A stretch of DNA of 56,004 bases, from the IMG/VR virus record IMGVR_UViG_3300020178_001420, positions 1 to 56,004 of that record; one strand, written 5' to 3'. The notes under the pieces were generated by a model. It was not told where the DNA came from, ran no database searches, and saw only the letters and a list, made by a program, of their open reading frames with translations. The stretch is from a virus. Position 1 is the first letter of the stretch; every line of letters begins with the position of its first letter. This document shows positions 36,790 to 54,623 of the stretch, in pieces. The position numbers and the translations under genes were made by a program.

Positions 36790-36793
36790 ACTA

Positions 36794-36804
36794 ATATAGT
36801 ACAC
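36794..36804 (-). promoter_or_regulatory. Candidate late promoter element (GTGTACTATAT)
   Basis: On the minus strand GTGTACTATAT ends 4 nt before the portal ATG, which has no SD. It shares the GTGTA plus AT-rich pattern of the other sites. Confidence 0.4.
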
Positions 36805-36827
36805 CAATAGATCGTAAAGTCTAAAGT

Positions 36828-36868: not shown

Positions 36869-37372
36869 TTAAAAGTTTACATATCCAGCAAAGAAAATCG
36901 AAAAGTTATTCTGTCCGTATTGTCTTGCAAAGCTTGCCATTGCTACCGCTCGCGCACTATAATTGCTTGTATTTATACTCCATTTTGCACAAACGTTAAC
37001 ACCGAAATTAGTTCCGCTTGCCCCTGGTGACTGTCCGTATGTTCTCGTTGCATTAATTCCTGTTCCGTTGGTTCCTCCATTGGTCCCACCAGGACCTGTT
37101 GTTGTTGTACAAGTGGTATTATTCTGTTGCCATCTTTGATAATGTAAACTGGCTATTGCCGTAAGACGCCCTCCCGCAAAGTTTACTCCACTCATCCCTG
37201 TAAGAGGGATGATTGGGATGTTTACTGGTTTGTTATAGCTGAATGAAGAACCTACTATAGTTGTAATCTGTGAGTATACTGGGACTCCACCAAGTGTGCC
37301 AGGCCCCATTACTGGACCCGTTGTATTAGGATTCGTCCCATTTCCATTTCCATTGCCTCTAGGTGTCGTCAT
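36869..37372 (-). CDS. Small Gly/Asn/Thr-rich protein of unknown function
   Basis: A 167-residue protein with low-complexity Gly/Asn/Thr/Pro stretches at residues 1-30 and about 90-120. Both flank an ordered-looking region with VPVYSQITTIVGSSFSY and a C-terminal part rich in aromatic residues (SFARQYGQNNFSIFF). No signal peptide or membrane helix is clear. The codon-level pattern (varied Gly and Thr codons in long runs) supports a real protein. It lies between a large virion adhesin and the portal, so a virion component such as a head fibre or small decoration is possible. I do not recognise a family. Confidence 0.6.
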   Translation of the reverse strand: MTTPRGNGNGNGTNPNTTGPVMGPGTLGGVPVYSQITTIVGSSFSYNKPVNIPIIPLTGMSGVNFAGGRLTAIASLHYQRWQQNNTTCTTTTGPGGTNGGTNGTGINATRTYGQSPGASGTNFGVNVCAKWSINTSNYSARAVAMASFARQYGQNNFSIFFAGYVNF

Positions 37373-40400: not shown

Positions 40401-41229
40401 TTTTTATCAACTGGATATTTTCTGGAGTATCGCAAAAACTTCTGTCATATTCAGCGGCAAGAGTCATAATTCTTTCACCTACAAAGTTTCCGTCGCCTAA
40501 ACCTCCACTGATTCTTATATCTCTTTCAGCAGGCGAGTCAAAAAACATTTTTACTCTAGCACAGCCTTCTTCAACTTCAATATTGCCGCCCATAGATCCG
40601 TGGTTCCCGCATTTATACCACAACTCCGAAGGCGTTTCCTTAACAGCTTGTAGTCTTGTATATGCTCCGAAAGACCCTGGGGATGAAGACCCGTATGTAA
40701 CTCCGTTTGAGTAATCTGGACCGTCATTTGTGGTGGAAAACTTTAAATAGTGGCTTTGATTACTCTTATCTTCTTGTTTAAATGTGTAGTAGTTTCCTAT
40801 TTGTATTTCAATTCTGTTTTTTATAACTACGCCGCCTATGAATTCGTCTTTGTTATAATCAACCTCTATATCTTCAGTATCTTCCATGGAAAGTTGAAGT
40901 GTGATTTTCTTCACACCTCTGTCGGTTATTCCTTCCGCAACTGAAACTACAGTTGATCCTGATATTTGATCTCCAGCCCTAATTTTTGAAACTGGATATT
41001 GATTCCATTCAAATGTATACTCTTTAGACGGGTTTACTTTGACATCAATTTCATAAGCTATATATGCTATTTCTGAAATCTTCCCTTTAGAGAAAAAATC
41101 TTCATGGTAATCTGTATCTGCCCCATGCTGTACAACAAAACCGAAGCTTTGCTTATTTAAATAGCTTGGTTTCCCAAATGATATTTGAGTCTCTTTTGTA
41201 TTTACTGTTTTTAAGTCTATAAGTCCCAT
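37438..41229 (-). CDS. Large virion adhesin with cupredoxin domain and BspA-type repeats
   Basis: The protein has 1263 residues. Residues about 145-220 form a cupredoxin-like domain: H160 in SHYLKFST, and C207, H210 and M213 in a YKCGNHGSMGG segment. This gives the type-1 copper order His...Cys-X2-His-X2-Met with the amicyanin spacing. Residues about 270-870 contain many loosely repeated units ending in MFxNxxF-like segments. A second repeat block near residues 1035-1195 is clear BspA/DUF285 repeat (26-residue surface-protein leucine-rich-like): FKEMFKNCTQISSLDLSGL, then SMFSGCTDL and so on. The C-terminus is a short strand. No signal peptide is seen, so it is a virion rather than exported protein. 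Placed between the sulfotransferase and portal genes, it is probably a fibre or decoration adhesin. The ATG at 41229 has no SD; a GTGTAATATAT element ends 5 nt upstream. Confidence 0.82.
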   Translation of the reverse strand: MGLIDLKTVNTKETQISFGKPSYLNKQSFGFVVQHGADTDYHEDFFSKGKISEIAYIAYEIDVKVNPSKEYTFEWNQYPVSKIRAGDQISGSTVVSVAEGITDRGVKKITLQLSMEDTEDIEVDYNKDEFIGGVVIKNRIEIQIGNYYTFKQEDKSNQSHYLKFSTTNDGPDYSNGVTYGSSSPGSFGAYTRLQAVKETPSELWYKCGNHGSMGGNIEVEEGCARVKMFFDSPAERDIRISGGLGDGNFVGERIMTLAAEYDRSFCDTPENIQLIKIWDWRPAALHGYGEFAGMVNLTSLTLPKKQGPVTMIKSLNPASKIQNVTNGGEMHFVRTFADTKFTTNPANFSSLVEASDNCTKLESTFENSLWNGTFFWSTSKVKDWTNCFKNSAFVGDYLNTSAAEIIDGMFSGPNCAWSGKLNGLNLLKCISAKRVFQDKQIYEGPINAWVIPNVTSLQGFYQGSSRTESIFLKAPAATDFSYFFAETNNFNQIFSVTSEASNVNFEGFFKDSTGFIQNANWMWVMCKLHEATSLKDFFRGSNFAGVISQWFPSGHSVTNISGMFAELKNTYLPGVSVWDLSPFEDVSYLFENSKGSMPYVSQAFENVLTCEGFYKDNLVASTPGIRNWRFPKCKNFSRFFENTTGVFVIDWLKKGNHIGEDFSYMFANSKFDTGTLLDLSSAKNTSYMFENTNLTQDVMGFSPFPNLENAEGMFQGANYSGRTRNWLFPKLISAKNMFKNTVFDQSKLVSHFWFIADKYPGQTSVLEDISGMFEGSNHHRGIGSWNWINDSVKKANRAFANTQQESCSGIIQRLRFFRNLVEFNEIFRDCPWLTNECDLTILLQDTEAIKSQINLTKGTGFTGRWRDVDVKQYETEADWKENGNVIIAEKPLESFIDCSNTISEPKSIIEISYGSTNSVVLPLAGIGVDGVRVEFEQTFEEYTTADQGNITINFSENTNQTVKILGDITHFGAVDTENNELKTSASLVESITLKGDSFTSMEGAFANMSNAAISGFEVDYSKITSFKEMFKNCTQISSLDLSGLNVSKVVTMESMFSGCTDLSEFLSPDWNTSSLANTSNMFKDCSSLSSLDINHWNAESIVAISGMFDGCVALKSIDLSQWNNNLINSFENMFRNASSLNTIDLSNVAGSSATSMSGMFEGCTALVKLLIPELVADYKVTTSFDRMFINCTSLDNTYVDFANWCVSHISQAPQDFSNNAKFTTLPSWGERCPGEPTYDINDFIGTRVAVFSDQKDLEFYSFN

Positions 41230-41253: not shown

Positions 41254-41862
41254 CTAAAATACATAAGAAAACATAGCTATGGATTCTGACCCGATTTCTT
41301 CTACCATACTTCTTGTTTCATCATTATACATTTTTTTATAATCTTTATCATTTCTGCCCGTTTTATGATCGTGATTGACTATTTCATAATTCTCTAAACC
41401 TATTTTTGAGCATACATATTTCAAACCTTCGTTATATTTCTCTTGCCTTATAACAAAGTCAACACAATAATCTCCGTTATAAAATAAATATGGTTTTATT
41501 TCCAAAGGTTTTCTGCATCCATTTTTAATAAAAGAACGGTGGTGAAATTTCACATACTCTTCAAATGTTGAAATGTTTTTTTTCTTGTAGAAATCTACAT
41601 ATTTTATATCGAAGAAAAACCTTGAAACCATTCGGTCCCATGGGTTTCTGACTACAGAGAATTTAAACGCTTTTTCTATATCCATCCCTGATTGTTTTGC
41701 TTGATCAGCTATGTCATTTAAAGGTTTATGTAGAAGACTTCTATGTATTTTAAAAAGCTCGGTCTCTTTATTTAATTTCCATAATCCTAATGCTATTGCC
41801 ACACTCGATCCAGCGCATTTTTGAGGATGTGTAAATATGTAATTTTGTTCTATATTATACAT
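41254..41862 (-). CDS. Sulfotransferase
   Basis: A 202-residue protein with both PAPS-binding motifs of the sulfotransferase superfamily: a 5'-phosphosulfate loop at residues 12-20 (HPQKCAGSS) and a 3'-phosphate motif at 72-77 (RNPWDR) followed by a helix with MVSRFFFDI. These are the features of small, soluble carbohydrate-type sulfotransferases (Sulfotransfer_2 group). It would transfer sulfate from PAPS to a sugar or other hydroxyl. No membrane segment is seen. Its start is 5 nt after the stop of the upstream glycosyltransferase/sulfotransferase gene, so the two form one unit. The acceptor is unknown. Confidence 0.88.
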   Translation of the reverse strand: MYNIEQNYIFTHPQKCAGSSVAIALGLWKLNKETELFKIHRSLLHKPLNDIADQAKQSGMDIEKAFKFSVVRNPWDRMVSRFFFDIKYVDFYKKKNISTFEEYVKFHHRSFIKNGCRKPLEIKPYLFYNGDYCVDFVIRQEKYNEGLKYVCSKIGLENYEIVNHDHKTGRNDKDYKKMYNDETRSMVEEIGSESIAMFSYVF

Positions 41863-41867
41863 TTTGA

Positions 41868-44402
41868 TTATTGAGTTACTATATTATTAAATAAAGTTTC
41901 GTATTTTACTCTTTCTTGGAATATTTTTTGAATTTCTGGGTCTATGCTTTCTAATTCTATTTTTTCGTATTTATTTATGTTATCTACTTCTACAATCAAA
42001 TCAGATTCTGCAACCTTTATATTATAACATTCTTCTAGGACATGTGCAATTACCTCATTACTGTATTTAACATATTTACACAAGAATTTATTCTTCTTCA
42101 TCCAATCTATAGCTTTAAAATAATGATCATCCGCTATAGGTTGTGAATTTGGAATTTTCGCAAGCTGTCTTATCGTCCAGCTATCTTCAAGCATTTCTGA
42201 ACTTAAATAAGCTTCAATATTTTTAAACTTATTTTCGAAGTTAGTGGATTCATGATTAGACTTTTGTGAATTCAAATAATGAAACATCGATTGCGTGCGC
42301 GACCAAGCATCCCTAACTAACATAAAATTTAATGGATAAGAATTGCTCTGTTTTAAAATTTCCCAAACTTCTTCAAATTGATCTACTGCATTTGATTTAA
42401 AACTAGACTCTACTGTTACTGCTAAAATAATCATCTTTTTCTCATTAAGATACTTAACAATAGTGTCTAATGTGGTTTTTCTTGACCGAGGGGCAGGTTC
42501 CCTTTTGTTCTGTTTTATTTTTTTGTCTTTTTTCCAAGATTCATCATAGAAAAATCCAAATATTATAAGGCCTTGCCTTTTTTCTTCATCAATACTTAAC
42601 CTTTGAACATTGCAACCTTTGTCTCCACCAAATATCCTAACAAAATACCTAGTCATTGTTCCTATTAAGAATGTTCCAGCATTTTTAGGTATATGAAATA
42701 GTATTGGAACTTTTCTGTTAACAGAAGTTTTATTCGAAGAGAAATCTTTTGAGAAGTTCATATAAATACAGTCGTAAAATTTTGCTTGATGCTTGAATTC
42801 ATTATATTTCCTTGTAGATCTATTTATCGTATTTATTAAATAAGTTTTGTCTTGAAAATTTATTTCAGGTCTATTTGTTTTTTCGATATTCAGGTAACTG
42901 GAAAAAACATTATCCATTACTTGATCTACACATTCTATTCTAAAAAAATTAAATTTACTCAAAATACAGCATAAGTGGTCGAACTGGTCCCTAGAAGGAT
43001 AAGATATTCCGATCAATTTCTTTATTAAAAAATTGAAATCATCTGTTGATCTTATATATTCACTAAACTTTTGAGTTCTTAAATTCTTGTCCTGTATTTC
43101 TCCTCCAAAATTAGTTTTTTCATAATTTAAAAACATGGAAGATATGAAATTCTCTGAATTAGACATGAAAGAATATAAAAAGATATCACTTTTAATTTCA
43201 GACCTTAATATATGAAAGTTTAGAAATGTCTGAGTCTCAAAGTCGGACGAGTATCTAGCATCAATAATTACAGATAAAACATTAATAGATCCATCTGCTA
43301 TTAGCTTTTTTAAATTAAAAATTTTACATATAAATACATTGCCCTCTTTGTCTTCAAAAAATTCTTTTGGGTAGTTGTCAAATGAAGAGTATTTAAAACC
43401 TTGGACTATTATTTTCCCGCCCATGGGGGACAACACCTTTATTTTCACAAAACTATCTTTATAATCTTCCCGTAAGTTAATATCCAATTTTTTTATAACA
43501 TAATCGGATGCTCCTTTTGCATTGCAAAAAAATACAGGAGTTTTTTCTAAAGATCCATGGTTGTCAAAAAGAGCTGGGTTTATAATTTTGTTTATTTTTT
43601 GTCTTTTTTGATGTACTACTATAGCATTTTTGTGCTCTGTTTTAATCTCCTCCTTAGATATTTTATAGTCTCGCGGGTCACTTAAATTTATAATCAATTC
43701 TGTGTCTATTAAATCGTATTTTTTTCCAACTTTTTTGTTGAATAAAAAATTAGATATATCAAAATTCATATAACCAGATTCTTCTAAATTCTCTTCGATG
43801 TATTTCTGCCCTCCCAGCAAAAGATCTTTTAGTCTTTTACTATTTTTATACAAGGCTACTCCGTTTATATGTTCTCTGAATTTTGATTCTAAATGACATT
43901 TTTGCCTGCCTTTATATATGCTTCCAGCTATCTCAAATTTTTTTGTCTTTATATATTTTAAAAACAAGTCGAACCACAAGTCTTCAAGGCAGAAAGTATC
44001 AGCTTCTAACATTAAGAAATTTTCGTATTTCGCTGGCATTTCCATCATTTTGAACATGCTTTGATAGAATAATTCGTTAGCTCCTGCGGTATACCCTAAT
44101 TTTGGGATTGTTTTTGGTTTGGGGGATTTGGACCAAGGATACCAGAAAACATCATCTTTTTCGCTAAGGTTTAAATTAATATATTCAGCGGCGTTTATGC
44201 TCGGGTTACCATTCAATTGTGAAATTAAATTTTCCAAACGAGTAATGTTTGAAACTTTATTAAAAAATAGAAATAAATCAAAAGAGTAACGTTTTGAAGG
44301 CTTCCTTCCCATGAATTGATGTAGGCAATCCTCTAGCTCGCCACTTTCTAACTCTCTTTCAGTACAAACATAAAAAACAGATATTTTTTTTGTGTAAATC
44401 AT
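41868..44402 (-). CDS. Glycosyltransferase-like and sulfotransferase fusion protein (844 aa)
   Basis: The first half of residues 1-270 resembles a GT-A-type glycosyltransferase: an N-terminal Rossmann-like strand (KISVFYVCTERELES), an E133-A-D135 motif in a MLEADTF segment (DXD-like, residues 131-137) and a later HINGVALY segment. The middle (about 280-560) is beta-rich, then helical and unassigned. The C-terminal region has a sulfotransferase PAPS 5' loop at 570-577 (HIPKNAGT) and a 3'-phosphate motif RDAWSR at 697-702, followed by a helix. The 844 residues thus may couple sugar transfer and sulfation in one chain. It is transcribed leftwards with the separate sulfotransferase. The sulfotransferase half is well supported, the glycosyltransferase half only moderately. 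Confidence 0.75.
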   Translation of the reverse strand: MIYTKKISVFYVCTERELESGELEDCLHQFMGRKPSKRYSFDLFLFFNKVSNITRLENLISQLNGNPSINAAEYINLNLSEKDDVFWYPWSKSPKPKTIPKLGYTAGANELFYQSMFKMMEMPAKYENFLMLEADTFCLEDLWFDLFLKYIKTKKFEIAGSIYKGRQKCHLESKFREHINGVALYKNSKRLKDLLLGGQKYIEENLEESGYMNFDISNFLFNKKVGKKYDLIDTELIINLSDPRDYKISKEEIKTEHKNAIVVHQKRQKINKIINPALFDNHGSLEKTPVFFCNAKGASDYVIKKLDINLREDYKDSFVKIKVLSPMGGKIIVQGFKYSSFDNYPKEFFEDKEGNVFICKIFNLKKLIADGSINVLSVIIDARYSSDFETQTFLNFHILRSEIKSDIFLYSFMSNSENFISSMFLNYEKTNFGGEIQDKNLRTQKFSEYIRSTDDFNFLIKKLIGISYPSRDQFDHLCCILSKFNFFRIECVDQVMDNVFSSYLNIEKTNRPEINFQDKTYLINTINRSTRKYNEFKHQAKFYDCIYMNFSKDFSSNKTSVNRKVPILFHIPKNAGTFLIGTMTRYFVRIFGGDKGCNVQRLSIDEEKRQGLIIFGFFYDESWKKDKKIKQNKREPAPRSRKTTLDTIVKYLNEKKMIILAVTVESSFKSNAVDQFEEVWEILKQSNSYPLNFMLVRDAWSRTQSMFHYLNSQKSNHESTNFENKFKNIEAYLSSEMLEDSWTIRQLAKIPNSQPIADDHYFKAIDWMKKNKFLCKYVKYSNEVIAHVLEECYNIKVAESDLIVEVDNINKYEKIELESIDPEIQKIFQERVKYETLFNNIVTQ

Positions 44403-44418
44403 TATGTTCTATAATTCG

Positions 44419-44430
44419 GTGTAATATATA
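44419..44430 (+). promoter_or_regulatory. Candidate promoter element (GTGTAATATATA) for the plus-strand operon
   Basis: GTGTAATATATA on the plus strand ends 22 nt before the ATG at 44453, in the 50-nt gap between divergent genes. It is identical to the element at 28218-28229. The minus-strand gene starting at 44402 reads this sequence in the other orientation, so which strand it serves is not certain. Confidence 0.35.
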
Positions 44431-44452
44431 CTGTGTATTCTACTTATTTTTA

Positions 44453-44716
44453 ATGAAATTTAAAGTGTTTATTTTGCTTTGTTTTGTTTTTTTTAATTCT
44501 TGCTCGTCTTTTAAAGAAAAAAACCTAAAAACAATTGATTTTATTGGAGTAAACATAGCTCCCGATAAACAGGCAAATTCAAGCCAGCCAATTAAACCTG
44601 AAAACTATAGTCGTCCGTTTATTGTTTTTTGTTCATTAGTAGCTTTTGTTGGTTTAATCAATCTTTTGACATCCGCCTCCCCTAAAGTGCTTAAAAGATT
44701 TCAAAATCAACTATAA
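44453..44716 (+). CDS. Small lipoprotein with a C-terminal membrane segment
   Basis: An 87-residue protein. Starting at ATG 44453 (MKFKVFILLCFVFF) gives a short basic N-terminus, a hydrophobic core and a Cys17 in NSC, a plausible but non-ideal lipobox. A second hydrophobic stretch at residues 55-73 follows a Pro-rich linker. An upstream in-frame ATG at 44390 would bury the signal behind a Cys-rich tail, so 44453 is preferred. A lysis-related spanin or a superinfection-exclusion lipoprotein are options, but no specific match is seen. Confidence 0.55.
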   Translation: MKFKVFILLCFVFFNSCSSFKEKNLKTIDFIGVNIAPDKQANSSQPIKPENYSRPFIVFCSLVAFVGLINLLTSASPKVLKRFQNQL

Positions 44717-44879
44717 TTAAAAAATTATTTTCTTTTTTTCTTACCATCTTAAACCCATTTAAATTCATGCGTAAACATAAGTCTGTAATGTATTTTTTAT
44801 TCAAAATAATTTTTATTTTTTTCCCTTCTACTTGAATTTCATCAGCATATTCTTTACATATATCTAAGGCTTTTTGCAT
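44691..44879 (-). CDS. Small protein of unknown function (62 aa), minus strand
   Basis: A 62-residue frame (MQKALDICKEYADEIQVEGK...) that fills the otherwise empty 44717-44873 stretch between two plus-strand genes. It overlaps the end of the lipoprotein gene by 26 nt. The translation looks protein-like, with a helix followed by a strand-helix-strand pattern (KIKIILNKKYITDLCLRM, then FLIIVDFEIF). No SD precedes the ATG. The alternative is that this stretch is non-coding. Start-to-start spacing with the divergent J-domain gene (ATG at 44892) is 12 nt. Confidence 0.4.
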   Translation of the reverse strand: MQKALDICKEYADEIQVEGKKIKIILNKKYITDLCLRMNLNGFKMVRKKENNFLIIVDFEIF

Positions 44880-44891
44880 ACAATCATTATT

Positions 44892-45527
44892 ATGATTAAC
44901 TTTTCAAATTTACACACTAAAAAATTTTACAAAAAAATTAGAAGGAATTGGAGGGAGTGTTTTTTAGAATACCAAGAAGTGGTGAAGATAGAATCAATAG
45001 CTCTCGTTGAATTTAACAAACATTTAATAAAGTATATGTCTGAAGCGGGAATGGATATCCCCCAACCTAAAACGGAAAACAAAAATGAGAGCCATAAAGA
45101 TCATAAAGACAAATTCGAAAAAGATGAAATAAAAAAAATTTTTAGAGAGGCTGCAAAACTTTCCCACCCCGACTTAGATCCGACTTCTAGCAACATGGAA
45201 TTATTTAAAGAATTAATTCAAGCAAAAAAAGAGAATCAGTTAAATAAATTTTTAGATATAGCCAAGCAAATTGATAATAATATAAAAAATACAAATAATA
45301 AAACACCGTTGGCTAAGACAAAAAAAAATAATACCGAAACGAATGAATCTATTTCATTAGGTAGCGTGGATCATCTAGAAAAAGAAGTTTCCGACTTAGA
45401 AACTAAAATTCAAAAAATCAAAAATAGCATTCATTGGACTTGGTATTATGCCTCAGATTCCTCAAGAATTAAAATCATTAAGAAATCGGCAAATTTTATA
45501 AATAATGAGCAAAATAAAAAAAAATAA
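44892..45527 (+). CDS. J-domain (DnaJ-like) protein
   Basis: The protein has 211 residues. A J domain is suggested by the HPD tripeptide at residues 92-94 (EAAKLSHPDLDP), preceded by a DEIKKIFREAAKLS helix. The following helices (ELFKELIQAKKENQLNKFLD) complete the pattern. The N-terminal 75 residues are helical and Lys-rich, and a coiled-coil region follows the J domain. A J protein stimulates DnaK ATPase, so this one may recruit host DnaK to virion assembly or replication. The ATG at 44892 is preferred to a TTG at 44874, because the latter overlaps the divergent gene. It overlaps the next gene by 23 nt. Confidence 0.72.
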   Translation: MINFSNLHTKKFYKKIRRNWRECFLEYQEVVKIESIALVEFNKHLIKYMSEAGMDIPQPKTENKNESHKDHKDKFEKDEIKKIFREAAKLSHPDLDPTSSNMELFKELIQAKKENQLNKFLDIAKQIDNNIKNTNNKTPLAKTKKNNTETNESISLGSVDHLEKEVSDLETKIQKIKNSIHWTWYYASDSSRIKIIKKSANFINNEQNKKK

Positions 45528-46236
45528 CACTACAAAAAGCCCCTTAATAGGAAATAAATTAGACGAGTTTCGGCTGCGTTCTTTTAAACTAACTGAGAAG
45601 CAAAAAACACTCCTTAGTTTATGCATGGACCCTGAAACTAAAATAATTTTTATTTCAGGACCTGCTGGTAGCTCTAAAACATACATGGCGATATACTCGG
45701 CCCTAAGAATAATGCAAGAATCTAGAGATATGGACTTGCTGTACATTAGAACTATTATAGAAAGTGCAGAAAGGGGTTTAGGGGCATTACCAGGAGATTT
45801 GCAAGAAAAATTTAATCCCTATATCATGCCTTTATTGGAAAAACTTGATGAAATAATACCCGCTGAAACCACATCAAAAAAAGAGCTGCTGCAAGATAAA
45901 AGAATCGATGCGATGCCCATAAATTTCTTAAGAGGAGCTAGCTGGAAAAACAAAATTGTAATTATGGATGAAGCTCAAAACGCAACAATAAAAGAGCTAA
46001 CAACTCTAGTTACAAGAATAGGGGAAAACACTAAGTTATTTATTTGCGGAGATTTGATGCAAAGTGATATAAATGGGAAAAGCGGATTTAATGAAATCAT
46101 TAAAATTTTTAATGATGAAGAGAGTTCAGATAAAGGCATCCATACTTTTAAGTTTAACACTTCAGACATTAAGAGAAGTGCAATATTAAAATTCATAATT
46201 AAAAAAATATCAGATCATGGAAGTAGTGAAAAATAA
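45505..46236 (+). CDS. PhoH-like P-loop ATPase
   Basis: The protein has 243 residues. The Walker A motif GPAGSSKT is at 52-59, the Walker B-like DEAQNA is at about 155-160 following KIVIM, and a TRIGENTKLFICGDLMQSDI segment is the PhoH family hallmark. PhoH-like ATPases are widespread in marine phages. The family function is linked to RNA or stress metabolism, and in phages it is not established. It starts inside the end of the J-domain gene (a 23-nt overlap), so both belong to one operon. The overall length is typical for phage PhoH, without an extra PIN domain. Confidence 0.9.
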   Translation: MSKIKKNNTTKSPLIGNKLDEFRLRSFKLTEKQKTLLSLCMDPETKIIFISGPAGSSKTYMAIYSALRIMQESRDMDLLYIRTIIESAERGLGALPGDLQEKFNPYIMPLLEKLDEIIPAETTSKKELLQDKRIDAMPINFLRGASWKNKIVIMDEAQNATIKELTTLVTRIGENTKLFICGDLMQSDINGKSGFNEIIKIFNDEESSDKGIHTFKFNTSDIKRSAILKFIIKKISDHGSSEK

Positions 46237-46288
46237 TTTATTAAAATAGATTTTTTTTAAATATTAAATAATATTATATTTAATACCA

Positions 46289-46609
46289 ATGATTGAAATT
46301 ATAATAGCTTTAATCTCTTCTGCTACAACAGTTTTCGTTGTGCTTTTCAAACAAAAACATCAATCTCAAAAATTTAGAGATAGTTTCTCGGATATTGCGA
46401 ACAATCCACAAGTTGAAGAATTTAGCATTCATATTAAAAATAAAAAGGGGTTTCGATTTGAGACTAATGCATGTGAGTTAGTCACTAAAAACGACAGACT
46501 TAAAATTTCAATTGGGTATTCTGATGGAGTCTCGGATGATTTAGTAAAATCTAATAGCATCCAAGCGAATTTAATACATGGTAAATTAGAAAGGTTATTT
46601 TATGGCTAA
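46289..46609 (+). CDS. Small single-pass membrane protein
   Basis: A 106-residue protein with an N-terminal hydrophobic helix (about residues 2-22, IEIIIALISSATTVFVVLF) followed by a basic stretch, so probably an N-terminal anchor with a cytoplasmic domain of strands and helices (residues 45-105). No known motif. It overlaps the next gene by 8 nt, so it belongs to the operon. The 52 nt before it are AT-rich with no SD. An accessory membrane role is possible, but not more can be said. Confidence 0.6.
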   Translation: MIEIIIALISSATTVFVVLFKQKHQSQKFRDSFSDIANNPQVEEFSIHIKNKKGFRFETNACELVTKNDRLKISIGYSDGVSDDLVKSNSIQANLIHGKLERLFYG

Positions 46610-46958
46610 TATTTATTGTCCTAATTGCGGGAAAAAACATTTTTTTAATTTAAAAAGACCTGAAAAATGCGATAGTTGTGGGTCTAGTTTTTCTCCAAAT
46701 AATAACAAAAACATACCTCAGAAGAAAAACGAATATTCAGTTTCTGAAAAGACACAAAATTTAAATACATCATATGACGAGGATTACTCAGAATCTTTAT
46801 CCGTCCCTAAAATAAAATCTTTAGCATATGATCTAAATTTCGAAGGTATTTCCAAAACTATAAAAGGTAAAGATATCATAGGAGAGGCTCCGACTAAAAC
46901 AAAACAAAACGATCACAAGTGGAAAAGAAAAGTTACGAAGCATTCGAAGAGCAAATAG
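46602..46958 (+). CDS. Zinc-ribbon protein
   Basis: A 118-residue protein with two CXXC pairs, C6/C9 and C23/C26, in an N-terminal zinc ribbon (IYCPNCGKKHFF and a matching KCDSCGSSF). The rest is polar, Lys/Ser-rich and basic at the C-terminus (KRKVTKHSKSK), which may bind nucleic acid. It overlaps the membrane protein gene by 8 nt and the sigma-like gene by 40 nt. Small ribbons next to sigma-like factors can be co-factors for transcription, but this is speculation. Confidence 0.65.
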   Translation: MANIYCPNCGKKHFFNLKRPEKCDSCGSSFSPNNNKNIPQKKNEYSVSEKTQNLNTSYDEDYSESLSVPKIKSLAYDLNFEGISKTIKGKDIIGEAPTKTKQNDHKWKRKVTKHSKSK

Positions 46959-47611
46959 ATCACGAACTTAAAAAACGTAAGGGTAAATGGAGGCTCAGCT
47001 CTATAGCTTGGATGGATTACGATGATGTTTGTCAAATTATTAGAGCTCATATATTTAAAAAATGGGACCAATGGGACCAAATTAGACCCCTAGCCCCTTG
47101 GGTTAATAAAATCATAACTAATCAAATTAAAAACTTGTTAAGAAATCACTACCAGAATTATGCTAAGCCTTGCATCAATTGCCCTTTTAGCTCATCTAGT
47201 GGTATTGACGACTCTTGCTCTTTCACTGTAACTCAATTACAAGACAGCAATTGTCCATTATTCAAAAAATGGAATAAGAGTAAGAAATATGCATATAGTG
47301 TTAAACTTCCATTATCCATTGAAGATAATCTCCATAAATTAACTAACCATGACCCGAATTACTTACACTCAATAGAAGATTCTATTGGCAAGGTTAATCA
47401 AATTCTCAAAGAGAAGCTTTCTGAAAAACAATTTTTCATTTACAAAATCCTCTTTATAGACAGAGCTAGCGAAGAAGAAGTTGCTGAAATTCTAGGATAT
47501 AAGACTTCTGAAAAAGGAAGAAAAGCTGGATACAAACAAATAAAAAACCTAAAGATGAAATATAAAAAAATGGTCATCGATATAATTGATAAAAACGATA
47601 TTCTATTTTAA
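46919..47611 (+). CDS. Sigma-70-like factor with an inserted four-cysteine element
   Basis: The protein has 230 residues. Residues about 30-80 read like sigma region 2 (DYDDVCQIIRAHIFKKW, then KIITNQIKNLLRNHY). Residues about 165-225 read like region 4, a helix-turn-helix with LSEKQFFIYKILFIDRASEE and EVAEILGYK followed by a basic recognition helix. Between them lie four cysteines, C85, C88, C100 and C112 (CINC, then SC and NC), a probable zinc site not usual in sigma factors. It would redirect host RNA polymerase, perhaps to the phage late promoters. The start is GTG at 46919 with no strong SD, so it may be misplaced. It shares one base with the next start (TAATG). Confidence 0.65.
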   Translation: MEKKSYEAFEEQIDHELKKRKGKWRLSSIAWMDYDDVCQIIRAHIFKKWDQWDQIRPLAPWVNKIITNQIKNLLRNHYQNYAKPCINCPFSSSSGIDDSCSFTVTQLQDSNCPLFKKWNKSKKYAYSVKLPLSIEDNLHKLTNHDPNYLHSIEDSIGKVNQILKEKLSEKQFFIYKILFIDRASEEEVAEILGYKTSEKGRKAGYKQIKNLKMKYKKMVIDIIDKNDILF

Positions 47612-48663
47612 TGAAATTGAATTCTGATCAAAAAAAATTTATCGATGCAAACTATATACAAATACCAGATATCGATCAATTAACAAGGACTTTATTTCAA
47701 AACGAAAAACTTGATGGAAGAAATAAAGAAGGCAAGGCTGTGGCTGCATATATGCTTGAAAGGGGTTATGGATACAAGACTAGGGTCCATGCTAAAGTCA
47801 AATCAATAGAACTCTCTGAATCTCAAAAAAGCCTAATATTAGAATATAGTGAAGATGATTTAAGTAGCCTGCAAATTGCTCAATTAATTTTTCAAGATAG
47901 AGAAGTTAAAAATTTAAGTATGGAGCAAAGAGCTGTCGCAGACTTTTTAAAAACAAATAAAAAAGGCTTCATAAAGCCTTCTGATTTGGATTTTGACAAT
48001 AAATACGAACCTCCAAAAAGCTTAGATTCTATTGTGGCAAAAATTAAAAAGCTATCCCATGCGAATATTGCTGATAAATACATAGATTTAAAAAAGCAAG
48101 ATAAAGATAAAGTAGATAATTTGAAAAAATATTTATCTTCACCTCGTTTTAGTCAATTAATGAACACATATCGATGCGATAATGCAGAACTCTTTGAGTC
48201 TGAATTTATAATGGCTACATGGGATAAGCCAGATTTAACCGCAGACGAAGTCAATCTTTACATAAATGTATGTGTTGATTATGTTAACTTAAAAACCATA
48301 CAAAGAAACATGGACAAGCTAAATGCTATGTTTGATGACTGCGAAGATCAAACCGAAATGTCTGTCAAGTTGGCTGAAATTTTAAAAGCTAAATCCTCAG
48401 AATATCATCAATGCGAACAGAGGCAAGAGTCATTAATTAAAAAACTTAATGGCGACAGATCTGTCCGAATGAAAGACAAGAAAAATCAGTATGCCTCTGT
48501 TTTGAATTTAGTTCAATCTTTTCAGGAGTATGAAGAAAGAAAAAGAATGATTGAGATAGCTGAAAAACAAAAAATGCTAGTAAATGAAGAAGCAGATAGA
48601 GTGGAAAGTATGGATAGTTGGAAGGCTAGAATTTTAGGGTTAAGGAGGGACGATGTTTTATGA
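47611..48663 (+). CDS. Small terminase subunit candidate / DNA-binding protein
   Basis: The protein has 350 residues. Residues about 15-60 and 75-120 are two helical units of similar pattern (IPDIDQLTRTLFQNEKL... and DDLSSLQIAQLIFQDREV...), each shaped like a helix-turn-helix. Residues 140-350 are a long helical segment with a coiled-coil stretch (about 250-300). It lies upstream of the nucleases and the large terminase, so a DNA-recognition subunit is a reasonable guess, but small terminases vary widely. It overlaps the next gene by 4 nt (ATGA) and the sigma-like gene by one base. Confidence 0.5.
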   Translation: MKLNSDQKKFIDANYIQIPDIDQLTRTLFQNEKLDGRNKEGKAVAAYMLERGYGYKTRVHAKVKSIELSESQKSLILEYSEDDLSSLQIAQLIFQDREVKNLSMEQRAVADFLKTNKKGFIKPSDLDFDNKYEPPKSLDSIVAKIKKLSHANIADKYIDLKKQDKDKVDNLKKYLSSPRFSQLMNTYRCDNAELFESEFIMATWDKPDLTADEVNLYINVCVDYVNLKTIQRNMDKLNAMFDDCEDQTEMSVKLAEILKAKSSEYHQCEQRQESLIKKLNGDRSVRMKDKKNQYASVLNLVQSFQEYEERKRMIEIAEKQKMLVNEEADRVESMDSWKARILGLRRDDVL

Positions 48664-49016
48664 AAAATAACCAAGAATTGTACTACTATAAAGTTTCTAA
48701 AGTGATTAAAGTTGTAGATGGCGATACGGTTGATGTTATGCTTGATCTCGGTTTTGATATACATATTAAATGTAGAGTTCGGTTAATGGGCATCGATGCT
48801 CCAGAGACAAGAACCAAAGACAAAGCCGAAAAGAAGAGAGGAATGGCATCAAAAGCCAGATTAAAAGATTTGCTTAAAGATGGTTTAATGTTACATTCTC
48901 ATGGAAAGGGTAAATTTGGTAGAATACTTGGGGAGTTTTATTCATGTGGAGTGAATCTAAACGCCATAATGGTTGCGGAAGGGCATGCTAAAGAATATTT
49001 CGGAGGAGAAAGGTAA
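48660..49016 (+). CDS. Staphylococcal nuclease-like (SNase) protein
   Basis: A 118-residue SNase domain: KVVDGDTVDVMLDLGF, then RVRLMGIDAPETR with the conserved Arg and Glu of the active site, and a later GRILGEFY with the second Arg. It is shorter than the staphylococcal enzyme (149 aa) and has no signal peptide, so it works inside the cell. Substrate is probably phosphodiester DNA or RNA. It is in the same operon as the ERCC4-type nuclease and the large terminase, which suggests DNA processing or host DNA breakdown. ATGA overlap with the upstream gene. Confidence 0.85.
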   Translation: MKNNQELYYYKVSKVIKVVDGDTVDVMLDLGFDIHIKCRVRLMGIDAPETRTKDKAEKKRGMASKARLKDLLKDGLMLHSHGKGKFGRILGEFYSCGVNLNAIMVAEGHAKEYFGGER

Positions 49017-49022
49017 AACTAA

Positions 49023-49967
49023 ATGAACCTCGATTCGCTTACATGTAAAGTGTGCGGTAAAACTTTCACATCTTTAAAAGGTAAGCATTTACATATAAGC
49101 AAGTTTCATAATACTTCGCTTAAAGAATACTACAAAACATTTTATCCAAAACTCAGTTTATTATATCAAAAACCTATACCGTTTAAGGATGTAAATCAAT
49201 ACAAAAACACTGATTTTATTAGTAGATCTGAGTTGATTGAGTGGAGCTTAAAATCAAATAAAAAAGAAGTCCAAGATTACTTGATAAAAATTTTGCAAAA
49301 CAGAAAGAAAGCCAAAAATATTAAATTTTCTTTAAGTGAAATTGAGCTGGAGCTTTGTGATTTTCCCACTATAGCTGTCTATCAAAAAATTTTTGGAAGT
49401 TACTCTGAAGTCTGTGTAAAAATAGGTTTTAATAATTTCCTAAACAGAAACATTCCCTTAAACTTTTTCGAAGATGAAAGTTATGATGATTTAAAAATTT
49501 TTATAGATACTCGAGAGCAAAAACCTATAAAATATAATAATTCCGATTTTATGAAATTGGATTTTGGAGATTATACAGCTGCTGGCAATTTCTATGATTA
49601 CACTTTTATTGATAGAAAAAGCGAGCAAGATTTCAAATCAACTCTTAGCGGTAAAAATTTTGAAAGATTCAAGAGAGAACTGGATAGAGCTAGAGAATTT
49701 GATTCTTATGTTTTTGTTGTGGTTGAGAGCGATATAGATAAAATTAAAAAAAATAACTTATTTTCTCCTCATAAATCTAAATTACCCTACATATGGCATA
49801 ACTTGAAAGAGCTGTGTCAGGATTATAAAGACTGTTGTCAGTTTGTTTTTGCAGGAAATAGAAATGGATTGAAAAAAATCATACCAAAAATATTATTATA
49901 TGGTAAGCAGCTCTGGAAAGTTGATTTGCAATATTTCATTAACAAACAAATACAATTAAAAAAATGA
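49023..49967 (+). CDS. ERCC4-type endonuclease with N-terminal zinc finger
   Basis: The protein has 314 residues. The N-terminal 30 form a C2H2-type zinc finger (CKVCGKTF, then LHISKFH). A helical part follows (about 40-155), and then an ERCC4/XPF-type nuclease domain from residue 160 with DTREQ (162-166), GDY (182-184) and DRKSEQD (197-203), the motif set of ERKXXXD nucleases. Such enzymes cut branched or flap DNA. It sits directly after the SNase gene (6-nt gap) and overlaps the next gene by 4 nt. A role in recombination, replication-fork resolution or packaging is possible. Confidence 0.85.
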   Translation: MNLDSLTCKVCGKTFTSLKGKHLHISKFHNTSLKEYYKTFYPKLSLLYQKPIPFKDVNQYKNTDFISRSELIEWSLKSNKKEVQDYLIKILQNRKKAKNIKFSLSEIELELCDFPTIAVYQKIFGSYSEVCVKIGFNNFLNRNIPLNFFEDESYDDLKIFIDTREQKPIKYNNSDFMKLDFGDYTAAGNFYDYTFIDRKSEQDFKSTLSGKNFERFKRELDRAREFDSYVFVVVESDIDKIKKNNLFSPHKSKLPYIWHNLKELCQDYKDCCQFVFAGNRNGLKKIIPKILLYGKQLWKVDLQYFINKQIQLKK

Positions 49968-50329
49968 ACAATAAACCTGAAACCTTATGGTCTTTAGATT
50001 TTATCTTTAACTTAAAAGATTGTGATATTAAATTTGAAGAAAAAACCATAAAAAATATCGGACAATCCCTGGGTGAGTTAATTGATCCTGGCGGAGAAAT
50101 CATAGGAATCGTTAATGATTTTGGAGAGCATTGCGAAGACATGCATGGATTAAGGTTTTTCCATGAAACTCAGAATTGTTTAATCACAGGCCATTTTATT
50201 TTTAAGTCAAAAAATATATATTTAAATATACATTCTTGTGCTGGATATAAACCAAGTGTGGTGCTCGCTAAAGTTATTGAATTAATGAAACCTAAAACTT
50301 ACAGCGCTCAAAAAGTTTACAGAGAATGA
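49964..50329 (+). CDS. SpeD-like (AdoMet decarboxylase fold) protein, probably inactive
   Basis: A 121-residue protein with general resemblance to S-adenosylmethionine decarboxylase (SpeD): HGLRFFHETQNCLITGHF, then KSKNIYLNIHSCAGYKPSV and a following helix. In active SpeD the chain is cut before a Ser that becomes the pyruvoyl group, in an E-S-H context. Here the corresponding segment reads HETQN with Thr, so self-processing is doubtful. It overlaps both neighbours by 4 nt. If the assignment holds, it may alter polyamine metabolism or act as a non-enzymatic fold relative. Confidence 0.5.
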   Translation: MNNKPETLWSLDFIFNLKDCDIKFEEKTIKNIGQSLGELIDPGGEIIGIVNDFGEHCEDMHGLRFFHETQNCLITGHFIFKSKNIYLNIHSCAGYKPSVVLAKVIELMKPKTYSAQKVYRE

Positions 50330-52197
50330 GTTGGGATGCTGGAGAGCAGCAAAGAGCTATTAAGGAAGATTTTAATAAGCTTTTGCTACAGAAAAAAGGT
50401 TTTATCGAAGAAGATGAAGCTCAAATTTTGTTGTATAAATTTTTAAGGGAAAATATTACTTTTGCAACTCATTTAATAGCTGGCGTTGATTTGTTTCCCT
50501 TTCAACATATGGCCATCAAAGCAATGTTTGAAACTGATTACACTTTAGGAGTGTGGTCTCGTGGTATGTCTAAATCTTTTACAACAGGGATATATGCTTT
50601 TTTAGATGCGATATTCAATCAAGGAGTTGAGATCGGAATTCTATCAAAATCATTCAGGCAATCCAAAATGATTTTTAAAAAAATTGAAGATATTGCAGCC
50701 AAACCAGAGGCAGCTCTTTTAGCCCAATGTATTACTCATAAATCTAAAAGTAATGACGAATGGTTGATGGAAATAGGAAGCTCAAGAATTAGAGCCTTGC
50801 CTTTAGGGGATGGATCTAAATTGCGGGGATTCCGTTTTCATAGAATTATCATTGATGAATTCTTACTGATGCCAGAAAGAATTTATAACGAAGTTATTGT
50901 GCCCTTTCTTTCTGTAGTTGAAAATCCCGTAGAGAGAGAAAGAATGTATAATGTTGAAACCGAGTTAATTAAACAAGGAAAAATGAAAGAGGAGGATAGA
51001 CGTCAATGGCCAAATAATAAATTAATAGCTCTCTCTTCCGCGTCTTATAAATTTGAGTATTTATATAAACTTTATGAACAATTTGAGGGTCTTATATCTG
51101 GTAAAATCGTAGAAGACGGGGGAAATGCTACTAGGTGTATTATGCAGTTTAGTTATGATTGTGCTCCCAAAAAATTGTATGATGAAAATTTAATTTTACA
51201 GTCTAAAGCCACTATGAGCCAATCTCAATTTGATCGAGAGTTTGGCGCGATTTTCACAGATGATAGTTCTGGATATTTCAAAACTTCCAGAATGGCTTCT
51301 TGCACGATTCCAGCTGGAGAATCTCCTTCTGTTGAAGTAAAAGGAGATCCCACATCTGATTATTTAATTTCTTTTGACCCTAGCTGGGCTGAATCTGAAA
51401 GTTCTGACTTTTTCGCCATACAGGTGTTTAAACTTAATAACGAAACTAAACAAGGCACCTTGGTGCATGCATATGCACTAGCAGGAACGAACCTAAAGCA
51501 CCATATTTTTTATTTTCACTATCTTTTAAAAAATTTTAATATTAAATTCATAGTCGGAGATTATAACGGCGGACTACAATTTCTTAATGCATGTAATGAA
51601 AGCAAAATATTTAAAGATTCAAAAATAAAAATACAAAACTTAACCCCAGCTTTTGATAATCCAGAAAATTATAAAGAAGATCTCAACTTAGGGAAAAGAG
51701 AATATAATCCATCAACATACAAATATTGTATACTAAGAAAACCATCATCAGCATGGATAAGATCAGCCAACGAGCTTCTCCAAGCAAGCTTCGACCATAA
51801 AAGAATATGGTTTGCAGCAAGAGCCATCAACGACAGCTATTCCGAACAGATAAAACATAACATACCCATTGATAATATTAAATTCTTAAACACAGCCTCT
51901 AATGAAGAAAAACAATCAATAGGAGCAAAGATGATTGATTTCGTCGAACACCAATCTGATATGATTGATTTAACGAAAACGCAGTGCTCTCTTATTCAAA
52001 TCAAAACAACCCCGCAAGGAACACAAACATTTGATCTACCAGATACTTTAAAGAGGACTACAGGCCCAAATAAAGCCCGTAAAGATGCCTATTCGGCCTT
52101 AGTGTTAGGTAATTGGGGGATTAAGATATATAACGATATAAAATCTCATAAAGAGCATTATGTAGACAATTCTTTCACCCCCATGTTTATAAAATGA
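50326..52197 (+). CDS. Large terminase subunit (packaging ATPase and nuclease)
   Basis: The protein has 623 residues. The Walker A-like motif SRGMSKS is at 78-84 and the Walker B is in HRIIIDEF with D177/E178, forming the N-terminal packaging ATPase. The C-terminal RNase H-like nuclease has D351 in FDPSWAE, D412 in VGDYNGG and D587 in RKDAYSALVL, the likely metal-binding triad, as in T4 gp17-type enzymes. It cuts concatemers and drives DNA into the prohead through the portal. It overlaps the preceding and following genes by 4 nt each (ATGA), so translation is coupled. Confidence 0.94.
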   Translation: MSWDAGEQQRAIKEDFNKLLLQKKGFIEEDEAQILLYKFLRENITFATHLIAGVDLFPFQHMAIKAMFETDYTLGVWSRGMSKSFTTGIYAFLDAIFNQGVEIGILSKSFRQSKMIFKKIEDIAAKPEAALLAQCITHKSKSNDEWLMEIGSSRIRALPLGDGSKLRGFRFHRIIIDEFLLMPERIYNEVIVPFLSVVENPVERERMYNVETELIKQGKMKEEDRRQWPNNKLIALSSASYKFEYLYKLYEQFEGLISGKIVEDGGNATRCIMQFSYDCAPKKLYDENLILQSKATMSQSQFDREFGAIFTDDSSGYFKTSRMASCTIPAGESPSVEVKGDPTSDYLISFDPSWAESESSDFFAIQVFKLNNETKQGTLVHAYALAGTNLKHHIFYFHYLLKNFNIKFIVGDYNGGLQFLNACNESKIFKDSKIKIQNLTPAFDNPENYKEDLNLGKREYNPSTYKYCILRKPSSAWIRSANELLQASFDHKRIWFAARAINDSYSEQIKHNIPIDNIKFLNTASNEEKQSIGAKMIDFVEHQSDMIDLTKTQCSLIQIKTTPQGTQTFDLPDTLKRTTGPNKARKDAYSALVLGNWGIKIYNDIKSHKEHYVDNSFTPMFIK

Positions 52198-53210
52198 AAA
52201 CCCATGCCTTAAATATAGATTCCACTCTTGACGATTTTATTAACTTAATAAGAAATATTATTTCGCTAGACCCAGAACAATCCCAAAATACTATTATCAA
52301 AATAATAGACCCCTCGGCTTCTAATACATTTAATGAACTTTATAGCCATCGACATTTAGACAATAAGAAATTAGCATATAAAAATTTTTTAAAACCCAAT
52401 TTGGACTTGTATAAAACTCCAAACATTTTTATAGGAAATATATTTTTAGATTATAATTTTGTTGAATATATTTCTATTTGTTGCCCAGTAAAATTGCTTA
52501 AAGAAGAGTATCTTAATGCTTTTGAAGATTTAAGGCTTTTAGTAAGCATTCTTTACAGGAGATTCATTTTAAACACTAAAAAAATACTTATATGTATTTA
52601 TTCTTCGATTGATCATCAAGATAAAATCAAAAAATTAAAAAACACGATTTGGTATAAAGATTTTTCCAGAAATAGTAATTTGAATTTCTTTGAAATTTAT
52701 GGCGGAGCTGAAAACACTTACACTAAAGGCGGAAAAGTTTTTCTAAATGTTGAAGAGGGGTATGACAAGTTGAGCTTGAAAACTTTTAAAATGATTGAGC
52801 ACTTCAATAAGTATTATGATTTCGACTATTTACTTAAAATAGATTCTTCAATTATAGATAGAGATTCTTCGATAAGACAATACACGTTTCACAATTTCGA
52901 GAACAACTTTAGATATAAACTCTTTGAACGAGATTATGACGGAGTTTTAAATGTAGAAAACCACAATTTTAGGTATATTCATCAATGGGCTCAATCTAAA
53001 AACATGAAAGCATATCCAGAAAAAATTTTTAAAAATGAAAAAATACCAGATTTTTGGGGTGGTAACGCATATGCTTTATCAAAAAAATCTTGTAAAATTT
53101 TATCTCAAAATAGGGAGGTTTTTCATGATTTCAAACAATATATGTGCGGTTGCGAAGATTTGTGCGTAGGGTACATATTGAAAAAAAACGGTATTAAAAA
53201 CTGGAATTAA
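52194..53210 (+). CDS. GT31-like glycosyltransferase
   Basis: The protein has 338 residues. The C-terminal half has the order of GT31 (galactosyltransferase/fringe-type) motifs: a DXD-like site at residues 216-220 (KIDSS with D217 as the key acidic residue), FWGGNAYALS near 283-292 and CEDLCVGYIL near 321-330 (the ED motif). The N-terminal 170 residues are less typical. No membrane anchor is seen, so it is cytoplasmic. It starts inside the terminase stop (ATGA) and may be a structural-protein or lipopolysaccharide glycosyltransferase. Sugar donor unknown. Confidence 0.72.
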   Translation: MKTHALNIDSTLDDFINLIRNIISLDPEQSQNTIIKIIDPSASNTFNELYSHRHLDNKKLAYKNFLKPNLDLYKTPNIFIGNIFLDYNFVEYISICCPVKLLKEEYLNAFEDLRLLVSILYRRFILNTKKILICIYSSIDHQDKIKKLKNTIWYKDFSRNSNLNFFEIYGGAENTYTKGGKVFLNVEEGYDKLSLKTFKMIEHFNKYYDFDYLLKIDSSIIDRDSSIRQYTFHNFENNFRYKLFERDYDGVLNVENHNFRYIHQWAQSKNMKAYPEKIFKNEKIPDFWGGNAYALSKKSCKILSQNREVFHDFKQYMCGCEDLCVGYILKKNGIKNWN

Positions 53211-53235
53211 TTCAACCATCTTTTATATATAATAT

Positions 53236-54006
53236 ATGCATGTTTTTACATATTACGACGCCTCTGTTGGTCACCCAGGACAATCAGAACTTATAGAATT
53301 GTGGAAGAAAAGCTGGGAGAATAAAGGCTTCACACCCGTGGTCTTAACTAAGAGTCACGCTGAAGACCATAGTTATTTCAAAGAATACACAGAACAAATA
53401 GATGAAATACATAAAAAAATTATGTATGGCATTCCTGTTCGAAGTTATGGATTATCATGTTACCATAGGTGGTTGGCATATGCCACACATGGTTCAAAGC
53501 ACTACTGTTCCCTAACATGCGACTATGATGTCATAAACTTGAGTCTTGATGTAAATGAGGCTCGTAAATATCTAGAAAAATATGGAACAAAAATTGTTTT
53601 TCATCATGGGACTACCCCTTGTTTAGTTTCTGGCCAAAGAGATTTGTTTGAATTTTTATGTAAAGAAATCGTTAGAATATCCAATAAAAATGTGCATTTA
53701 CTTAAAAACACTATACATCCCCATTATAATGATCAAGAATTTGTTCAATTCAATCGGTCAGATTTATTTTTAGGACCAAATAGAAACAAATTTGAAATTA
53801 ATAACTCACTCGCTCATGAAAGAATAATAGGGGACTATGAACACTCTATCCACGATCTCTCCAAGAAACTAATTCACTTTTCACATTATTTCTGTGACTT
53901 GGCTAGAATAAAATTAAAGAAACCAGGTATGCCTATTGACGACGTTAGAATTAAAATAGTTTCTAAAATGCTCGATTTTGATAAAACCTTTTTTGATTGT
54001 TTATAA
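53236..54006 (+). CDS. Glycosyltransferase candidate
   Basis: The protein has 256 residues. The N-terminus (MHVFTYYDASVGHPGQSELI) begins with a strand and a DXD-like CDYDVIN is near residue 95-100 after SKHYCSLT, both expected of a GT-A fold enzyme. A SYGLSCYHRWLAYAT segment lies before it. The C-terminus is helical. I cannot assign a family. The ATG lies 26 nt after the upstream stop, and its TAA shares one base with the next start (TAATG). Cluster membership with a GT31-like gene and a sulfotransferase supports a sugar-modifying role. Confidence 0.6.
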   Translation: MHVFTYYDASVGHPGQSELIELWKKSWENKGFTPVVLTKSHAEDHSYFKEYTEQIDEIHKKIMYGIPVRSYGLSCYHRWLAYATHGSKHYCSLTCDYDVINLSLDVNEARKYLEKYGTKIVFHHGTTPCLVSGQRDLFEFLCKEIVRISNKNVHLLKNTIHPHYNDQEFVQFNRSDLFLGPNRNKFEINNSLAHERIIGDYEHSIHDLSKKLIHFSHYFCDLARIKLKKPGMPIDDVRIKIVSKMLDFDKTFFDCL

Positions 54007-54623
54007 TGTTAAAAAATTCAATATCTAATTTTCATAATTTAATATATATCCACATACCTAAAACTGGAGGCAATTCAATAAAACATTCCTTGGGTCATTT
54101 CGATGGGGACTCTCATTTCAAACTGAATGATTTTGATTCAAGTTATTCGGATTTCAGGTTTGCCGCTTTTGTTAGGAATCCTTGGGATAGAGTCTTTAGC
54201 GCTTATTATTATTTATTGCACAATGGGTCTGGCAATAATTTAGACCTTAACAATAAAAAACAATATATTGATCCTTATAATTCGTTTGAATCCTTTATTC
54301 TTCATGGGTTAAAGGAAGCTTCCCTTCAATGTATTCACTTTGTCCCTCAAATAGAATTTTTGAAAAGTAAAAATCATAAAATGTCTTTCATTGGAAAGCT
54401 AGAACATATGATATCTGACTTTTATTTAATGTGTCACTGTCTTCAATTAAAACCGTCTGATCATATTTGTAAAATCAATCAATCATTTAAACCTGATTAT
54501 CGCAATTATTTCACTCATGAAATGAAGGTTCGTTTATATAATACTTATATGGATGATTGCAATATCCTTGGCTATCGATTCGATGAAGCCACCGTTATAA
54601 ATTCGGGCCTAGCTTATGTTTAA
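54006..54623 (+). CDS. Sulfotransferase
   Basis: A 205-residue protein with both PAPS motifs: HIPKTGGNS at 16-24 and RNPWDR at 57-62, followed by a VFSAYYYLLHN helix. This is a small Sulfotransfer_2-type enzyme similar in outline to the one at 41254-41862. I chose ATG at 54006 over an in-frame TTG at 53997, because ATG gives a one-base TAATG overlap with the preceding gene. It is the last plus-strand gene and faces the FG-GAP/LamG adhesin on the other strand. The acceptor is unknown, but a glycan built by the two upstream glycosyltransferases is likely. Confidence 0.88.
   Translation: MLKNSISNFHNLIYIHIPKTGGNSIKHSLGHFDGDSHFKLNDFDSSYSDFRFAAFVRNPWDRVFSAYYYLLHNGSGNNLDLNNKKQYIDPYNSFESFILHGLKEASLQCIHFVPQIEFLKSKNHKMSFIGKLEHMISDFYLMCHCLQLKPSDHICKINQSFKPDYRNYFTHEMKVRLYNTYMDDCNILGYRFDEATVINSGLAYV

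Follow-up and report, generated by a model that had tools for sequence, protein, structure and literature searches.

Giant viruses decorate their virions by means of virus-coded sugar-nucleotide and glycosyltransferase (GT) genes, and the GTs of serotype-converting gtrABC phages alter surface sugars. For mycobacteriophages, modification of virion proteins by phage-coded GTs has been proposed (Freeman et al. 2023, as cited in PMC12619734). What phage sulfotransferases (STs) do has been described as unclear (PMC10580990); direct literature searches on named phage STs found nothing, and broader searches gave mentions as auxiliary metabolic genes (AMGs) only.

The locus described here combines both types of enzyme in two gene clusters (41254-44402, minus strand; 52194-54623, plus strand). 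As in giant viruses, sugar-nucleotide and GT genes are virus-coded, whereas the carriers are tailed phages in which STs are prominent and the genes form small, apparently late cassettes. Phage GTs are also shared with the gtrABC phages, whereas GtrA was absent from 34 ST-bearing records, mostly fragments. In common with the mycobacteriophages, as presented in PMC12619734, GTs are phage-coded, whereas the predicted sulfation and the GT-ST fusions are particular to the present loci.

General features of the record

The window, i.e. the whole stretch of DNA analysed, is a linear IMG/VR record of 56,004 bases from a marine/estuarine tailed phage, recognized as such by a terminase large subunit (50326-52197, plus strand) that was called by both Pfam and PHROG and that anchors the second cluster. 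A portal (34768-36807) and a capsid protein (31345-32418), both without a family match of their own, are predicted on the basis of the gene order and of their conservation among relatives. Every reading frame named in an earlier sequence-only reading of this DNA was present as described. Near-identical records from independent assemblies share the same ST and GT genes on both sides, so that the arrangement is not an assembly artefact and the 56-kb record is not a chimaera. At least 596 relatives of the terminase are present in the viral collection, and the best 80, which were kept, are 68-80% identical; all records compared are uncultured and most are fragments. Host assignment through terminase relatives in genome bins was discarded, as the bins (Halobacteriovorax, Flavobacteriaceae and Verrucomicrobiales) were mutually discordant. 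A DUF1501 protein (E 1e-108) is encoded in the phage record G036 (L170:10489-11757); this domain, which we take to be typical of planctomycetes and their relatives, may be a hint to the host of that phage.

Sulfotransferases and the GT-ST fusion protein

Two stand-alone STs are encoded in the window, namely (i) a protein of 202 aa (41254-41862, minus strand) and (ii) a protein of 205 aa (54006-54623, plus strand), the start of which is most likely the ATG at 54006, TAATG-coupled to the preceding gene. Both match PHROG_3347 ('Galactose-3-O-sulfotransferase') and Sulfotransfer_2 (Pfam PF03567, cut-off 22), with 22.7 bits for 41254-41862 and 41.6 bits for 53997/54006-54623. The two PAPS motifs, defined as 5'-PSB (PKxxGxS/T-like) and 3'-PB (RxPxxRxxS), are intact in both proteins (HPQKCAGS with VRNPWDR; HIPKTGGN with VRNPWDR), in agreement with the sequence-only reading, which had recognized ST motifs in these two frames. 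In an alignment of 12 sequences (A1), no residue of the core R57-N-P, R62 and S65 varies, and the P-loop lysine is almost invariant. PAPS-dependent transfer of sulfate is predicted for these proteins. With their intact PAPS motifs, they resemble the phage and cellular carbohydrate STs of PHROG_3347 and PF03567; the window differs in that several divergent STs accompany GTs, one of them being fused to a GT.

This fusion is an 844-aa protein (41868-44402, minus strand). It had been read as a two-part GT and ST gene, and both parts stand, but a degenerate ST domain between them had been overlooked. The protein is composed of a GT-A module (residues 1-268; 43599-44402), a degenerate ST domain (approximately residues 275-555; 42738-43580) and an intact C-terminal ST domain (residues 555-844; 41871-42740) with the motifs HIPKNAGT and VRDAWSR..S. 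As the AlphaFold (AF2) model of the whole protein, based on 6 sequences, reached a pLDDT of only 36, the GT module was modelled separately, with 15 sequences and a mean pLDDT of 92.4. A Foldseek search of the PDB with this model gave 276 chains at E <= 0.001, those listed (50) being all glycosyltransferases or proteins with a glycosyltransferase domain; LARGE1 ranked first (E 7e-9), and the further best solved folds were XXYLT1 (xyloside xylosyltransferase), LgtC, Skp1 galactosyltransferase and glycogenin. As modelled, residues 1-268 have a GT-A enzyme fold of GT8-like type. In alignment A9 of the module, ExD, HxNG and D are invariant and a His is nearly invariant; a sequence profile search with the module found no credible solved relative.

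The degenerate domain has lost its PAPS motifs and is colinear with the ST family A2 (hhalign probability 92.7, E 4e-7, 266 columns), which is the family of the C-terminal domain. In A2, HxPKNAGT and R...R..S are invariant, and one member, the 297-aa protein of L006, matches Sulfotransfer_2 with E = 7e-4 and 20.2 bits, slightly below the cut-off of 22. The C-terminal domain has no Pfam match of its own; its closest stand-alone homologues are the 291-aa protein of L005 (24% identity, E 7e-18) and the L006 protein, and its iterated profile recovers more than 200 proteins, those listed being nearly all STs. The earlier proposal of an ST at this end of the gene is supported by both motifs and by homology with A2. 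The GT module of the 844-aa protein also occurs in a 753-aa protein of L006, where its fusion partner is an ST of another subfamily.

Glycosyltransferases of the second cluster

The terminase gene is followed by a Galactosyl_T (GT31) glycosyltransferase gene (52194-53210, plus strand; 28.4 bits, cut-off 23), whose first 4 nt (ATGA) are shared with the end of the terminase gene, and by a gene (53236-54006, plus strand) that matches no named family. The product of the latter belongs to an unnamed phage family with the pattern R..DYD..DQE..H, and in an alignment of eight phage sequences (A7) the R, DxD, D and H are invariant, the H lying late in the chain. A profile search with this family found no credible solved relative, and its profile gave no match when compared with that of the GT module in the 844-aa protein. 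In L123, a GT module, an ST and a module homologous to the 53236-54006 protein are fused, in this order, into one chain of 1107 aa. Together with the conserved residues, this fusion makes a GT role likely for the 53236-54006 protein, which is annotated here as a putative glycosyltransferase. The three GT-like units of the sequence-only reading differ in their basis: 52194-53210 is assigned by family, the N-terminus of the 844-aa protein by fold, and 53236-54006 by motif and fusion.

Sulfotransferase islands in related phages

Relatives of the STs are encoded by 362 stretches of the viral collection. Such a gene set had been called unusual, which holds for isolated phages but not for marine metagenomic phages, some of which have about 10 STs. 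Of 37 terminase relatives, 12 matched the ST profile, and most of 39 other records, selected for an ST, matched it several times; match counts exceed gene counts where one ORF yields two matches, and the distinct STs in hand reach about 10 in G036. The STs of one phage are mutually diverse, and most of them have their nearest relatives in other phages; the sets thus appear to have arisen through exchange and not through tandem duplication. The islands are not confined to one phage lineage, since the terminase of the window was present in only 8 of the 38 ST-selected records in which it was sought.

Each of the five ST and GT units of the window has counterparts in the ST islands of other marine phages, about 10 STs being present in some of them, and these islands encode many glycosyltransferases, methyltransferases and nucleotide-sugar enzymes. 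The surroundings of STs were compared using 150 non-redundant genes at most 2 ORFs from an ST and 150 genes at least 7 ORFs away (each set sampled once and deduplicated at 60% identity, with its 25 commonest families considered). Among the neighbours, from 99 loci, the named families are led by glycosyltransferases, methyltransferases and epimerases, whereas the distant genes are a mixture of replication, AAA and other genes with some glycosyltransferases; since the loci were selected for STs, this result describes the surroundings of STs rather than phages in general. Same-strand neighbours lie within 30 nt of each other in 83% of cases (median 1 nt). The STs and their neighbours are soluble, and proteins with two or more membrane segments almost never occur among the neighbours. 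The flippase Wzx (PF01943), GtrA (PF04138) and the thymidylate-synthase-type hydroxymethylase (PF00303) were each found in 0 of 34 ST-bearing records, mostly fragments. The last of these results bears on a role in DNA modification, in which glycosylated and sulfated hypermodified bases would counter restriction. DNA glycosylation by phage glycosyltransferases is known (as cited in PMC12619734), but the missing hydroxymethylase and the carbohydrate type of the ST families make such a role very improbable.

Both cluster sites of the window hold larger islands in close relatives. In G038 (80 kb), the first site encodes a dTDP-glucose dehydratase, several STs, a methyltransferase, a Fringe/Galactosyl_T enzyme, two Pfam-supported 2OG-Fe(II) oxygenases and an 819-aa GT+ST fusion, and the second site has the order terminase-ST-ST-316 aa-ST-ST-portal. 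By the GT+ST fusion of G038 lie three consecutive genes (L188:1422-3703), two of which have 2OG-Fe(II) oxygenase matches, and a Pro-rich (SPPPP-like) protein is also encoded in this record (L189:14446-16173); hydroxyproline glycosylation could possibly link the oxygenases, the fusion and the Pro-rich protein. In G004, six of the nine genes after the terminase are STs or ST fusions.

The terminase and portal genes are at most 300 nt apart in 35 of 42 relatives, and the larger insertions between them (L005, L013/L014 and L079/L074) contain genes of glycan type by annotation or appearance. The exact 4-nt overlap of the terminase stop by the next gene is shared by six distinct genomes within this lineage (the window, L005/L092, L006/L007, L093, L095 and L097), and the overlapping gene differs: the window has a GT at this place, and the other five have STs, which belong to different subfamilies. 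This constant junction with a varying gene suggests a late-gene slot and, with it, late expression. The island genes are under purifying selection, with dN/dS of 0.07-0.19 between L006 and L007 (terminase, 0.02).

Genes of the PAPS cycle

CysQ (TIGR01331, near or above cut-off) was found in 4 of 74 records, all four being among the 17 with at least six ST matches, against 0 of 57 others (Fisher p = 0.002, uncorrected; p = 0.09 among records of at least 100 kb). APS_kinase (PF01583, above cut-off) was found in 15 of 34 ST-richer and 1 of 39 ST-poorer records (p = 2e-5, uncorrected, the groups having been set by hand from ST counts and overlapping at two STs); among records of at least 70 kb, p = 0.045. 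Proximity of APS-kinase-like genes to STs was not significant (p = 0.22). In the records read, most of these genes encode an APS-kinase-like domain fused to a nucleotidyltransferase; the first 115 residues of the fusion align to solved APS kinases, the substrate of the domain being a prediction. In G036, CysQ lies 2 nt from such a fusion (both genes within L187:1171-2888), whose second domain is NMN-adenylyltransferase-like and which could be a phage PAPS synthase or a NadR-like enzyme. In the window, itself a fragment, neither CysQ nor an APS-kinase-like gene was found in the parts searched.

Phage STs have been classed as sulfur-cycling or fitness AMGs (PMC13079714, PMC12285232), and the CysQ and APS-kinase-like genes that accompany them would suit a role in host sulfur metabolism or small-molecule chemistry that benefits host fitness. 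Such a role appears unlikely, as the STs lie among glycosyltransferase genes, with fusions between the two, and as the mutual diversity of the STs of one phage is better explained by many positions on a glycan than by a single step of metabolism.

Adhesin genes beside the clusters

The first cluster adjoins a gene for a 1263-aa adhesin with DUF285 (BspA-like LRR) repeats (37438-41229, minus strand), likely of the same operon; the ST gene 41254-41862 lies 5 nt after the gene of the 844-aa protein and 24 nt before the adhesin gene, on the same strand. The second cluster is convergent with the 3' part of a gene for a large laminin-G/FG-GAP protein (54651-56004, minus strand), which continues past the contig end and encodes about 1404 aa in the near-identical record L088, where a further DUF285 protein comes next. 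The claim that each cluster adjoins a large adhesin gene is therefore correct by position, but co-directionality is limited to the cluster at 41254-44402. STs are not linked to large adhesin ORFs in general, since ORFs of at least 700 aa show no enrichment among ST neighbours (1.1%, against 3.1%). The same association, sought in related genomes as had been suggested, was found once, in G070, which lacks the terminase of the window: one operon (L181:8960-19727) encodes three STs, a 53236-like protein, a Fringe/GT31-like GT, two further GT-like proteins, a DUF285 adhesin and CysQ. The island on the terminase side of G038, a close relative, leads directly into the portal gene without an adhesin.

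Between the adhesin and portal genes of the window, a 167-aa Thr/Asn/Gly-rich protein is encoded (36869-37372), which is a conceivable glycan acceptor. Pro/Thr/Ser-rich ORFs were also considered as candidate acceptors and were dismissed as not discriminating, since they occur in loci with and without STs.

Proposed role of the clusters

That these phages encode a set of enzymes for making sulfated glycans, as the sequence-only reading had proposed, is well supported by the domains present, by the fusions, by the conserved co-occurrence of the genes and by purifying selection (dN/dS as above). From the families, folds, fusions, co-occurrence, purifying selection and terminase coupling observed computationally, we infer catalytic activity, an order of steps, an acceptor and an effect on adsorption or protection. 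In brief, both clusters would be variable late-gene cassettes that place sulfated glycans on the virion proteins of the phage itself, a reading to which we assign a probability of about 0.5. The glycan would be built and sulfated in the host cytosol: the GTs (the GT-A module, the GT31 enzyme and probably the 53236-54006 protein) would add sugars from nucleotide-sugar donors, the STs would then move sulfate from PAPS onto sugar hydroxyls, and the fused GT+ST protein would couple the two steps on one acceptor. The acceptors would most likely be phage surface proteins made simultaneously, namely tail fibres or adhesins and perhaps the capsid, and the resulting virions would carry sulfated glycans. 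This choice of acceptor is favoured by the position of the second cluster in the terminase operon, by the co-direction of 41254-44402 with the DUF285 adhesin gene, by the similar operon of G070 and by the missing envelope-export parts (Wzx, GtrA); the missing enrichment of large ORFs beside STs and the adhesin-free island of G038 speak against it. The APS-kinase-like and CysQ genes of ST-rich records add to the case for the cassettes as a whole, although both associations are weaker among long records.

The main rival is a modification of host lipopolysaccharide, capsule or cytosolic precursors, by which receptors would be changed (superinfection exclusion) or the cell masked. LPS- and capsule-type families (GT25, Caps_synth) do occur among the island neighbours, relatives encode UDP-galactopyranose mutase, UDP-glucose dehydrogenase and dTDP-glucose dehydratase, and soluble enzymes are compatible with such a modification because host glycan precursors are also cytosolic. 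However, the flippase and GtrA are missing from the ST-bearing records searched, membrane proteins are almost absent beside the STs, and a coupling to the terminase, a late gene, would be late for exclusion, so that we regard this rival as possible but somewhat doubtful. As the clusters are coupled to the terminase and genes for membrane export were missing from the records searched, we tend to favour virion parts, modified in the cytosol, as the target.

A wider and rather speculative extension of virion modification is that many marine tailed phages have a near-complete sulfated-glycan pathway, used late to coat virions; it might comprise, equally tentatively, PAPS supply (the APS-kinase/nucleotidyltransferase fusion), PAP removal (CysQ), nucleotide-sugar synthesis, GTs and up to about 10 STs. 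Similar and often larger gene sets are present in many other marine phages, where they most likely decorate the virion or the host surface.

In summary, the glycan islands, the GT fusions, the coupling to the terminase and the genes of the PAPS cycle lead to a testable hypothesis of sulfated virion glycans in marine phages. If it is true, negatively charged sulfated surfaces would affect how common marine phages adsorb, aggregate and persist.
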